A stretch of 37,358 nt of DNA from a virus: positions 1 to 37,358 of the IMG/VR virus record IMGVR_UViG_3300044729_002084, one strand, 5' to 3'. The translations under genes and the position numbers were made by a program. Below are positions 31,061-33,028 of the stretch, piece by piece. The notes beneath the pieces are model-generated. The model did no database searches, was not told the origin of the DNA, and saw nothing but the letters and a program-made list of their open reading frames with translations. Numbering within the stretch: the first letter of the stretch is position 1; each line of letters starts with the position of its first letter.

Positions 31061-31133
31061 TGGAGCGGGTAGTCGGATTCGAACCGGCTTCTTTAGCTTG
31101 GAAGGCTAAGTCCTCTCCCAGGAGAATACCCGC
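31061..31133 (-). tRNA. tRNA-Gly (TCC)
   Basis: Acceptor GCGGGTA/TACCCGC, T73, loop CTTCCAA on TTAGC/GCTAA, encoded CCA. Confidence 0.95.
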
Positions 31134-31140
31134 ATGTAAT

Positions 31141-31342
31141 CTTGTCTAGCTACTAGTCCTCACTAGCCCTAAACTGAGTTGTTACCCTGTCCAACACTAT
31201 TGACTTATGGTCGGTTGTGTTTCCTACCTACGATTTTTCTATCACCCATATAGGCGGGCTTTGAGGCTCAGATCGTATGCGCCCTGGCGTTTTGGTGAAG
31301 CCAATCACCCCCATTCTTAACGAAGTTGGGCCTCCGAGGTTC
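31141..31342 (-). ncRNA. Structured RNA A (paralogue of RNA B)
   Basis: A 200-nt spacer between tRNA-Thr and tRNA-Gly with no ORF but dense pairing. It shares a 21-nt identical block (31173-31193, plus-strand ACTGAGTTGTTACCCTGTCC+A) and CGGTTGTGT (31212-31220) with the spacer at 32757-32949. The 3' domain folds as outer helix 31145-31149/31069-type partner at 31169-31173, internal loop (GG/TAG on the RNA), then inner helix CTAGT/ACTAG with a 4-nt loop. The same architecture with different bases occurs in RNA B. The outer helix uses a G-U pair only if the minus strand is transcribed. Function unknown. Confidence 0.65.
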
Positions 31343-31416
31343 TGGTGCCGATTGATGGAATCGAACCAACGATTGATGCTTACAAGGCAACTGTTATACC
31401 ATTTAACTAAACCGGC
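31343..31416 (-). tRNA. tRNA-Thr (TGT)
   Basis: Acceptor GCCGGTT/AATCGGC, A73, loop CTTGTAA, encoded CCA; one mismatch each in the anticodon and T stems. Its 5' base overlaps the stop codon of the peptidase gene. Confidence 0.9.
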
Positions 31417-32159
31417 TATAGTCTTTCAATAATCTTTCTACCTACTCTTTGCACACTCTGTGTATTTCGTTCACCAAGAATTACTATTGTATATTTTTCG
31501 CCATGCTTTGTCAAGTACATTACTAGACATTTACCAGCAGCATTAGTAAATCCTGTTTTCGAAATTGCAATTTCCTTATACTCTTTTAATAAATTAAAAT
31601 TAGTGTTGTTTACTTTTACTACTCTAGGTTTTCTTTTCTTTTTACTAACACTTTCAATATCAAAACTTTCTAATGCGGATAAATCACGCATGGTATTATA
31701 ATTATATGCATAGGTCAATAACAATGAAAGATCCTTTGCATTACTTAAGTTGTTTCTACCTATACCTGACGGATCTTCATATACTGTTTTTGTCATGCCT
31801 AACTGATTTGCTTTGTAATTCATATTTGCAATAAAGGCACTTCTACCGCCAGTATAACTTTTCGCTAAAGCTTCTGCTGCATTATTGTCACTTTTCACTA
31901 AAAGCAATTTTAGTAATTGCTCTCTAGTCATTTCTTTTCTACCTGCAAAACCTCTATACGGTACTTTTTCATACAATGAAGCACCACTTTCTATTACAAC
32001 AATTGCAGTCATTAATTTTGTAACACTTGCAATCGGTCGTATTCTTTCTGATGCATATTCTTCAACTACTTCATCCTTTGTCACATTGTAAACATAAGTT
32101 GTTGCAGCGTTTACATTTAATGAGAATAATAAAAATAAAGTTAAAAATAATTGTTTCAT
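31416..32159 (-). CDS. Exported D-Ala-D-Ala peptidase (peptidase S11, PBP7-like)
   Basis: 247 residues. Signal peptide about 1-19 (MKQLFLTLFLLFSLNVNA). The three penicillin-binding motifs are present in order: SVTK 45-48 (nucleophile Ser45), SDN 90-92, KTG 201-203. It lacks the C-terminal membrane-anchor domain of PBP5, so it resembles the soluble endopeptidase/carboxypeptidase PBP7 type. In the periplasm it would trim or cut peptidoglycan cross-links, which could aid lysis or block superinfection. A CATAAATA late-like element lies 29 nt upstream, so it may be a late gene inside the tRNA array. Confidence 0.92.
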   Translation of the reverse strand: MKQLFLTLFLLFSLNVNAATTYVYNVTKDEVVEEYASERIRPIASVTKLMTAIVVIESGASLYEKVPYRGFAGRKEMTREQLLKLLLVKSDNNAAEALAKSYTGGRSAFIANMNYKANQLGMTKTVYEDPSGIGRNNLSNAKDLSLLLTYAYNYNTMRDLSALESFDIESVSKKKRKPRVVKVNNTNFNLLKEYKEIAISKTGFTNAAGKCLVMYLTKHGEKYTIVILGERNTQSVQRVGRKIIERL

Positions 32160-32187
32160 TTGATTCTCTGTGTAATGTGTAAAGAAA

Positions 32188-32195
32188 TATTTATG
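32188..32195 (-). promoter_or_regulatory. Late-promoter-like CATAAATA before the peptidase
   Basis: One mismatch to TATAAATA, 29 nt before the peptidase ATG. Its first bases are the CA of the tRNA-Ala CCA end. Confidence 0.4.
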
Positions 32196-32269
32196 GTGGA
32201 GGATAGCGGATTCGAACCGCTTACTCAGCCTTGCAAGGGCCGTGTGTTCCCAATTAGCACCAATCCCCC
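32194..32269 (-). tRNA. tRNA-Ala (TGC)
   Basis: Acceptor GGGGGAT/ATCCTCC with one G-T, A73, loop CTTGCAA on CGGCC/GGCTG, encoded CCA. Confidence 0.92.
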
Positions 32270-32289
32270 GCCCGCCTCACACGCTACTC

Positions 32290-32376
32290 TGGTGGGTGCT
32301 CTCCGATTCGAACAGAGAAGGTCTAAGACAAATGATTTACAGTCATCCCCCGATACCGTTACGGGACTAAACACCC
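32290..32376 (-). tRNA. tRNA-Tyr (GTA)
   Basis: Acceptor GGGTGTT/AGCACCC, A73, loop CTGTAAA, class II variable arm, encoded CCA. Confidence 0.95.
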
Positions 32377-32383
32377 TAAAACT

Positions 32384-32460
32384 TGGCTGACCAGGTAGGG
32401 TTCGAACCTACGACATCCTGATTAACAGTCAGGTGCAACTACCGGCTGTGCTACTGGTCA
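32384..32460 (-). tRNA. tRNA-Asn (GTT)
   Basis: Acceptor TGACCAG/CTGGTCA, G73, loop CTGTTAA on CCTGA/TCAGG, encoded CCA. Confidence 0.95.
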
Positions 32461-32467
32461 ATAAATT

Positions 32468-32544
32468 TGGCGACACTTAGGGAACTCGAATCCCTGACCT
32501 CTGCCGTGACAGGGCAGCGTTCTAACCAACTGAACTAAAGTGCC
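32468..32544 (-). tRNA. tRNA-Asp (GTC)
   Basis: Acceptor GGCACTT/AAGTGTC, G73, loop CTGTCAC on CTGCC/GGCAG, encoded CCA. Its first two G residues also pair in the long helix of the spacer upstream. Confidence 0.95.
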
Positions 32545-32623
32545 ATATAGAAACACACTCAATACTCTTATACGCCCGTGCCTTGCATGCCGTTAAAATA
32601 TAAGCGAATGTGTTTTTATATGG
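32543..32623 (-). ncRNA. Long-hairpin element 1 between tRNA-Lys and tRNA-Asp
   Basis: The spacer is closed by an 18-bp helix with one A-C mismatch (CCATATAAAAACACATTC with GAGTGTGTTTCTATATGG). The 5' CCA of the helix is the CCA end of tRNA-Lys and the 3' GG is the start of tRNA-Asp. Inside, CTTATA/TATAAG forms a second helix around a GC-rich loop. The helix is homologous to that at 32950-33028, sharing GAAACACACTC on the plus strand. Confidence 0.6.
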
Positions 32624-32695
32624 TAGGTGCGGAGAATTTCGAAATCTCGACTTACCGGTTAAAAGCCGGTTACTCTGCCTCTGAGTTACGCACCC
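32621..32695 (-). tRNA. tRNA-Lys (TTT)
   Basis: Acceptor GGGTGCG/CGCACCT with G1-T72, A73, loop CTTTTAA on ACCGG/CCGGT, encoded CCA. Confidence 0.93.
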
Positions 32696-32724
32696 ATTTG
32701 TTTACCACTCTTGTCACTATCCAT
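32686..32724 (-). CDS. Candidate 12-codon micro-ORF before tRNA-Lys
   Basis: ATG 32724 is preceded by AAAGGAG at 7 nt, among the best Shine-Dalgarno sequences in the window. The frame reads MDSDKSGKQMGA and stops at a TAA inside the tRNA-Lys acceptor region. It could be a leader peptide, a relic of a displaced gene, or chance. Confidence 0.3.
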   Translation of the reverse strand: MDSDKSGKQMGA

Positions 32725-32756
32725 GACAGGACTCCTTTATAAAAAAATGAATTCTT

Positions 32757-32949
32757 GCTAAGGCTACTTGTTTTCCAGGCAAGCCCCTTACTGAGTTGTT
32801 ACCCTGTCCACATTTGTTTCAGCGTATCGTGCTACCGGTTGTGTCCGGATATCTAGGTGCTCTGCTCTGCATTGCGCTAACGGTAGCCTAGCCGACCGGT
32901 CTAACTAACGTGTGACACCCGGCACTTTCAGGAAAGTGCTAACCGGAAA
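32757..32949 (-). ncRNA. Structured RNA B (paralogue of RNA A)
   Basis: A 193-nt spacer with no ORF. It has the 21-nt block shared with RNA A (32790-32810) and CGGTTGTGT (32836-32844). The 3' domain has outer helix AAGG/CCTT (32760-32763 with 32886-type partner at 32786-32789), internal loop, and inner helix CTTG/CAAG, covarying with RNA A. Upstream there is an 8-bp hairpin GCACTTTC/GAAAGTGC (32922-32939). Helix 32831-32837/32881-32887 (7 bp) crosses helix 32853-32857/32887-32891, a possible pseudoknot. Not recognised as a known class. Confidence 0.65.
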
Positions 32950-33028
32950 CCATATTGAAACACACTCTTTGGAATCGAACCAATGGGCGCCTTACCCACC
33001 AGGGTACTATAAATGTGCTTCAATATGG
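32950..33028 (-). ncRNA. Long-hairpin tRNA-like element 2 after tRNA-Glu
   Basis: Closed by an unbroken 18-bp helix, three pairs of which are G-U only on the minus-strand RNA. It encloses a T arm TTGG-TTCGATT-CCAA stacked directly on the helix, and a small arm TACCC-TGGT-GGGTA whose loop has GG like a D loop. There is no anticodon arm; AAGGCGCCCA links the arms. This elbow-only layout recalls the tRNA-like domain of tmRNA. Its 5' CCA is also the CCA end of tRNA-Glu. Confidence 0.6.

Follow-up and report, generated by a model that had tools for sequence, protein, structure and literature searches.

The window analyzed here, a 37,358-base IMG/VR virus record, encodes a gp43-type polymerase (53% identity to cyanophages), UvsX, RegA and a clamp-loader subunit, and its encoded proteins place the carrier among the T4-superfamily myoviruses. 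ARAGORN called 25 tRNAs, all on the minus strand (25/25), and two spacers of this array are occupied by the structured RNAs A and B (Table 1). The array also encodes an RNase H-like protein (PF04308; 28375–28845, minus strand) and a D-Ala-D-Ala carboxypeptidase-like protein (31416–32159, minus strand), as well as a tRNA-Tyr(GTA) with a long variable arm (32291–32376, minus strand) that looks complete by eye and was missed by both ARAGORN and Rfam. Two further short spacer RNAs (32950–33028 and 32545–32620, both minus strand) possess a long, near-perfect closing stem (fold z-scores of –5.8 and –5.5, respectively). The former contains a T-arm-like GGTTCGATTCC without a recognizable anticodon arm, returned a sub-threshold Rfam tRNA-Sec match and was read either as the relic of a tRNA-like RNA that lacks this arm or as a small RNA of another kind. 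A scan for promoters and terminators remained near the shuffled expectation.

Table 1. Coordinates of RNAs A and B, their structural elements and the tRNAs flanking RNA A within the window
Feature	Position	Strand	Description	Support
tRNA-Gly(TCC)	31061..31133	–	directly 3′ of RNA A	ARAGORN
RNA A	31143..31341	–	A-subfamily triple-pseudoknot RNA, 199 nt, between tRNA-Thr and tRNA-Gly	CM R1 162.9 bits, E 7e-54
A: 3′ two-part hairpin P8/P9	31143..31174	–		95.9% of cells paired; double changes in 6/11 pairs
A: core	31173..31192	–	GGACAGGGUAACAACUCAGU; mini-hairpin 5-16, 6-15, G.A 7.14, loop GUAACN	
A: PK3	31193..31228	–	P7; loop AACAC pairs GUGUU	permutation p < 5e-5
A: PK2	31229..31284	–	P4 GGGC/GCCU; loop UACGAU pairs AUCGUA; encloses P6	permutation p < 5e-5
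A: hairpin P3	31285..31303	–	UGGC/GCCA	covariation
A: PK1	31309..31336	–	CGGAG/CUUCG, with P1 CCCA/UGGG	P1 strong covariation, PK1 weaker
tRNA-Thr(TGT)	31343..31416	–	directly 5′ of RNA A	ARAGORN
RNA B	32756..32950	–	B-subfamily triple-pseudoknot RNA, between tRNA-Glu and tRNA-Lys	CM R1 48.5 bits
B: 3′ two-part hairpin	32756..32789	–	outer AAGG/CCUU, inner CUUG/CAAG	
B: core	32790..32809	–	GGACAGGGUAACAACUCAGU	
B: PK3	32809..32848	–	P7 CCGG/CCGG; loop CACA pairs UGUG	B-subfamily alignment
B: PK2	32853..32898	–	P4 CGGU/ACCG; loop CUAGG pairs CCUAG	B-subfamily alignment
B: PK1	32922..32945	–	CGG/CUG, with P1 GCACUUU/AAAGUGC	P1 covariation

Both spacers contain the 21-nt block ACTGAGTTGTTACCCTGTCCA (plus strand) and CGGTTGTGT, and a search for the 20-mer with up to three mismatches gave no chance match in 100 shuffles of the window. 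The covariance model (CM) R1, built from 34 A-type sequences with RNA A included and RNA B left out, recovered RNA B (48.5 bits, E 2.1e-15), which extends the homology of A and B past the short shared block; a second model (R2), built with B included, scored B at 154 bits. A and B are homologous minus-strand RNA genes of one family, in agreement with the sequence-only reading, which had taken the two spacers for related RNAs. When folded as single sequences, neither was more stable than its shuffles (z-scores of –0.4 and –0.6 for A and B, respectively), and the evidence for structure is therefore comparative rather than energetic.

Along the minus strand, in the 5′ to 3′ direction, the elements are PK1, the hairpin P3, PK2, PK3, the core and the two-part 3′ hairpin P8/P9. 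As judged from covariation, the RNAs contain three H-type pseudoknots in series: PK1 forms around stem P1, PK2 arises from pairing of the P4 loop with downstream sequence, with hairpin P6 in between, and PK3 from pairing of the P7 loop immediately upstream of the core. In A, the opening G-U of P8/P9 coincides with the final two core bases. The sequence-only reading had described the pairing of the 3′ domain correctly (it forms best on the minus-strand RNA, which has the orientation of all 25 tRNAs) and had glimpsed one possible pseudoknot, yet its account of the structure was incomplete, as there are three pseudoknots and additional hairpins.

The covariation that had been proposed from A and B alone proved strong once more homologues were aligned. 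In a sequence-only MAFFT alignment of the A-type RNAs, 252 cells were double-changed compared to 96.5 ± 8.1 when shuffled, and the covariation score (0.414 vs. 0.167 shuffled) collapsed when partners were slid by one column. The B subfamily, aligned on its own, contained 80 double-changed cells vs. 32 ± 4, with its P1 stem being 99.4% paired and double changes present in six of the seven pairs. A permutation test, in which strands were swapped between sequences and which is independent of the alignment register inside the two regions, yielded p < 5e-5 for P3, P4, PK2 and PK3 irrespective of the thinning level. For P9, p was ≤ 1e-4. PK1 has the least support of all elements (p from 0.0004 to 0.016 across thinning) and comprises only 3 bp in B. 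Pairing was kept across diverse variants of the PK2 helix (UACGAU/AUCGUA, GAUUGU/ACAAUC, ACGGU/ACCGU, GCUAUG/CAUAGC, GCAAU/AUUGC) and of the PK3 helix (AUCACA/UGUGAU, ACUGUA/UACAGU, GCAAC/GUUGC). A kissing interaction between the P3 and P9 loops, read by eye, was dropped for lack of covariation across subfamilies. In the L118–L169 set, near-identical 5′ modules were joined to different PK3 or 3′ modules in different elements, and this mixing suggests recombination between RNA copies.

Among 95 representatives, not all of which had been picked by the 20-mer, the core was nearly invariant at positions 1–4 (GGAC), 8 (G), 10–12 (AAC) and 17–19 (CAG). The pairs 5-16 and 6-15 were kept in 95/95 sequences, including changes from A-U to G-C and from G-C to U-A, and the non-canonical 7.14 was G.A in 57 and A.G in 35 of the 95. 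Taken together, these pairings define the core as a mini-hairpin of two base pairs and a G.A pair, capped by a GUAACN loop and flanked by unpaired GGAC and CAGU. The alternative hairpin register GGGU/ACUC was ruled out by the covariation at 5-16, 6-15 and 7.14 in homologues not selected by the 20-mer. Since some homologues were found via core patterns, part of the core conservation is imposed by the search; however, the set collected with a P4–P6 pattern, which is free of this bias, displayed the same conservation along with a few strongly diverged cores. Being the part least free to vary, the core is presumed, by inference, to be the contact surface.

A tRNA lay within 1.2 kb of 171 of the 178 distinct elements, and neighboring tRNAs were encoded exclusively on the element's strand (992 vs. 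none on the opposite one). For the 135 elements with an upstream tRNA in reach, the median gap to this tRNA was 3 nt. On the 3′ side, the neighbor was often a second structured spacer instead of a tRNA, and the elements of one large clade start a few nucleotides after a ~190-aa ORF, not a tRNA. The protein concerned (MNISLRKANAIQNNIND...LLQAEGLL) ends a few nucleotides before the RNA 5′ end at L041:8880-9452 and ~30 other loci; its function is unknown, with marginal PHROG matches only, and it is a possible partner protein. In several phages (L058:7305-7440, L009, L021 and others), an apparent second structured RNA of ~130 nt, featuring a TACTTGTCAATGTCGACCA block and a long closing stem (fold z-score of –2.5), sits directly 3′ of the A-type RNA and was found in 40 IMG/VR contigs. 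The family does not qualify as protein-coding: almost every frame is interrupted, with an average of 3.8–4.2 stops per sense-strand frame over 108 homologues, and element lengths were not in a register of three.

At the Thr-Gly junction, A is present in the window and in L043, whereas L020 and L051 have only five bases there (Thr-CCA-AACAT-Gly); this empty site marks A as a discrete cassette. In a tree of 108 elements, RNA B of the window fell into a 22-member clade (support 0.999) apart from A, and six of the seven two-copy loci combined one B-clade with one A-side copy. A and B thus represent two old subfamilies, found side by side in further phages as well, and this bears out their earlier description as paralogous.

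The exact 20-mer, which reads GGACAGGGTAACAACTCAGT on the minus strand, was present in 70 IMG/VR contigs, and 50 distinct flanks aligned over ~200 nt. A further 27 contigs contained the 20-mer with its last base changed, the P4–P6 pattern, independent of the 20-mer, occurred in 102 contigs and a core-variant pattern in at least >120. Among the collected loci, the core together with the 3′ domain was found in 237 contigs, representing 191 distinct elements. R1 matched 47/47 and 47/48 of the virus records tested, mostly with one copy and in 13 records with two. A T4-type Gp23 capsid was encoded by 15 of 34 large-carrier records. The capsid of one tested carrier of the ~160–172 kb class was 79% identical to that of DLP_6, and that of one tested carrier of the ~220–365 kb jumbo-phage class was 65–70% identical to those of PA5oct, CBB and Phosso. 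Among cultured phages, the closest capsids belong to Stenotrophomonas phage DLP_6, methylophage Melnitz and Pseudomonas jumbo phage PA5oct.

Searches of reference collections revealed no counterpart. None of the 4227 families of Rfam 15 (including ribozymes, RNase P, introns, manA and wcaG) matched A or B, be it at the gathering threshold or, for the A/B region, at E values up to 5, so that the RNAs remain without a known class, as initially stated. Blastn searches of 50,697 GenBank phages with A, two other subfamily sequences and the 3′ half yielded no real match. No genome among those of 84,980 prokaryote species contained the exact 20-mer and five prokaryotic matches to the second pattern failed the CM, which disposes of a host-chromosome RNA. 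In 19 isolates (including T4, phiKZ, phage G, PA5oct, CBB, DLP_6 and Melnitz) searched with R1 and/or R2, only weak matches of ≤12 bits were obtained, e.g. in phage G (12 bits) and HTVC008M (8 bits); the matches in Vibrio phage 2.275 and PA5oct fall within coding sequences and were taken as noise. No described family shares sequence with A or B in Rfam 15 and none was recognized in the literature, of which most subscription papers and bioRxiv remained out of reach. A and B belong to a large, apparently undescribed family of ~200-nt RNAs in T4-related and jumbo phages. As the family is present in more than 200 uncultivated phage contigs and in none of the cultured phages tested, it seems that an RNA widespread among phages, its role unknown, has been overlooked.

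Beyond the observed homology, minus-strand orientation, fold, operon context, division into two subfamilies and cassette character, what these RNAs do has to be inferred. Overall, we consider it somewhat probable that they are ~200-nt noncoding RNA genes residing in the tRNA operons of T4-superfamily myoviruses, which are excised by tRNA processing and act in trans, their core docking on a conserved partner. A and B would be transcribed together with the tRNAs, although expression data are lacking, and be released by tRNA-processing nucleases; this excision is deduced from the 5′ end lying a median of 3 nt past the CCA end of the upstream tRNA. As the 3′ side often lacks a tRNA and one clade follows an ORF, such release is not universal. 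The liberated RNA is predicted to fold into a compact string of PK1, hairpin, PK2, PK3, core and 3′ hairpin, with the pseudoknot helices, whose sequences drift freely while pairing is kept, serving as a scaffold. Action in trans is inferred from one or two copies serving arrays of 10–34 tRNAs and from array positions differing among phages. The near-invariant, mostly unpaired GGAC/GUAAC/CAGU core would be where a conserved partner is likely to dock, and this partner might be bound so as to protect or adapt phage translation. It is possible, and we put it no higher, that these trans-acting phage RNAs, with their triple-pseudoknot scaffold, invariant GGAC-GUAAC-CAGU core and two co-occurring subfamilies, form a new class that acts from inside the tRNA operon to remodel or protect host translation and that many uncultivated T4-superfamily and jumbo phages carry. 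That the core partner is a host translation or RNA-processing component, the candidate we favor, is a guess, and a rather doubtful one; no partner has been identified computationally.

The same data may be read differently. Strict linkage to tRNA arrays and fast-drifting pseudoknot sequences around a fixed core would also fit a decoy or inhibitor RNA directed against host defenses that attack tRNAs or translation (anticodon nucleases, retron/PARIS effectors) and carried along with replacement tRNAs; phage tRNAs themselves are reported to escape tRNA-targeting defenses (PMC10264068, PMC11555353). We nevertheless deem a decoy unlikely, given that A and B lack a tRNA-like domain, that the core hardly varies even between very divergent phages, which is not what an arms-race surface typically shows, and that the partner is not known. 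A self-assembling scaffold, i.e. a homo-oligomer or A/B hetero-oligomer resembling the GOLLD and ROOL nanocages, would account for the recurrence of A and B as a pair as well as for the genomic niche and the ornate pseudoknotted folds, both as in GOLLD and ROOL (PMC12286853). However, at ~200 nt, the RNAs are short compared to GOLLD and ROOL (several hundred to >800 nt), match neither in Rfam and occur in single copy in most records, within the stretch examined, leaving this option quite unlikely.

The element could also work in cis, as a self-cleaving ribozyme or as a processing signal of the polycistronic tRNA transcript. Ribozymes typically combine pseudoknots with an unpaired core that hardly varies, and the element almost always adjoins tRNAs on the sense strand, yet arrays of 10–34 tRNAs contain only one or two copies, the syntenic Thr-Gly junction of L020 lacks the element while its tRNAs are intact, and no Rfam ribozyme matched; we regard this function as very unlikely. 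Barely credible is a selfish or relic element (a degenerate intron, a duplicated tmRNA fragment or other junk): its cassette-like presence and absence would fit, but covariation is strong, the core stays near-invariant when the full 20-mer is not required, neither an intron nor an RNase P or tmRNA match was obtained at A or B, and tmRNA genes coexist with the element on two contigs. Neither the defense decoy nor the self-assembling scaffold nor the ribozyme is excluded. What is new here is the family and its fold, not a proven new mechanism.

For decades, no role has been established for the orphan stable RNAs of T4-type tRNA clusters: a 2010 review of T4 listed the roles of RNAC and RNAD as unknown and no small trans-acting T4 RNA as functionally characterized (PMC3014915). 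A and B represent a second such pair, unrelated to T4 RNAs C and D and with hundreds of homologues. Since covariation supports the fold and the near-invariant core has been pinpointed, function can be tested with helix-breaking and helix-restoring mutants. The family being common in environmental phages and missing from the cultured phages tested, much structured phage RNA evidently escapes both Rfam and collections of isolates.

Orphan RNAs beside phage tRNAs constitute an already known category that includes GOLLD, ROOL and T4 RNAs C and D, to none of which homology tests assigned A or B. T4 RNAs C and D (species 1 and 2), likewise a pair of stable RNAs that a T4-type phage encodes among its clustered tRNAs and whose role is unknown (PMC3014915, PMC9697503), measure 139 and 119 nt and are adjacent to each other, unlike A and B. 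The initial analogy to this pair holds for position and not for homology: neither R1 nor R2 matched the T4 genome and, with filters off, R1 was blank at rnaC and rnaD, its best hit (5 bits) falling on the T4 tRNA-Pro gene. With tmRNA, which can occur in phage genomes, A and B share a compact architecture of serial H-type pseudoknots, but they have neither a tRNA-like domain nor a tag reading frame, and neither ARAGORN nor Rfam called a tmRNA at A or B. Replacement of tmRNA is rejected because, in L009 and L040, ARAGORN tmRNAs share a contig with the family RNA. GOLLD and ROOL, phage and prophage RNAs that form nanocages (PMC12286853), resemble A and B as ornate structured orphan RNAs with pseudoknots, often beside tRNA islands, yet span several hundred to >800 nt vs. 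~200 nt, and their Rfam models did not match the A/B region at the gathering threshold, nor when E values as high as 5 were allowed. The ToxI antitoxin RNA of type III toxin–antitoxin systems is also reported to be a small pseudoknotted RNA that acts in trans on a protein, but consists of one short pseudoknot repeated in tandem, whereas the A/B family combines three different pseudoknots with a core.
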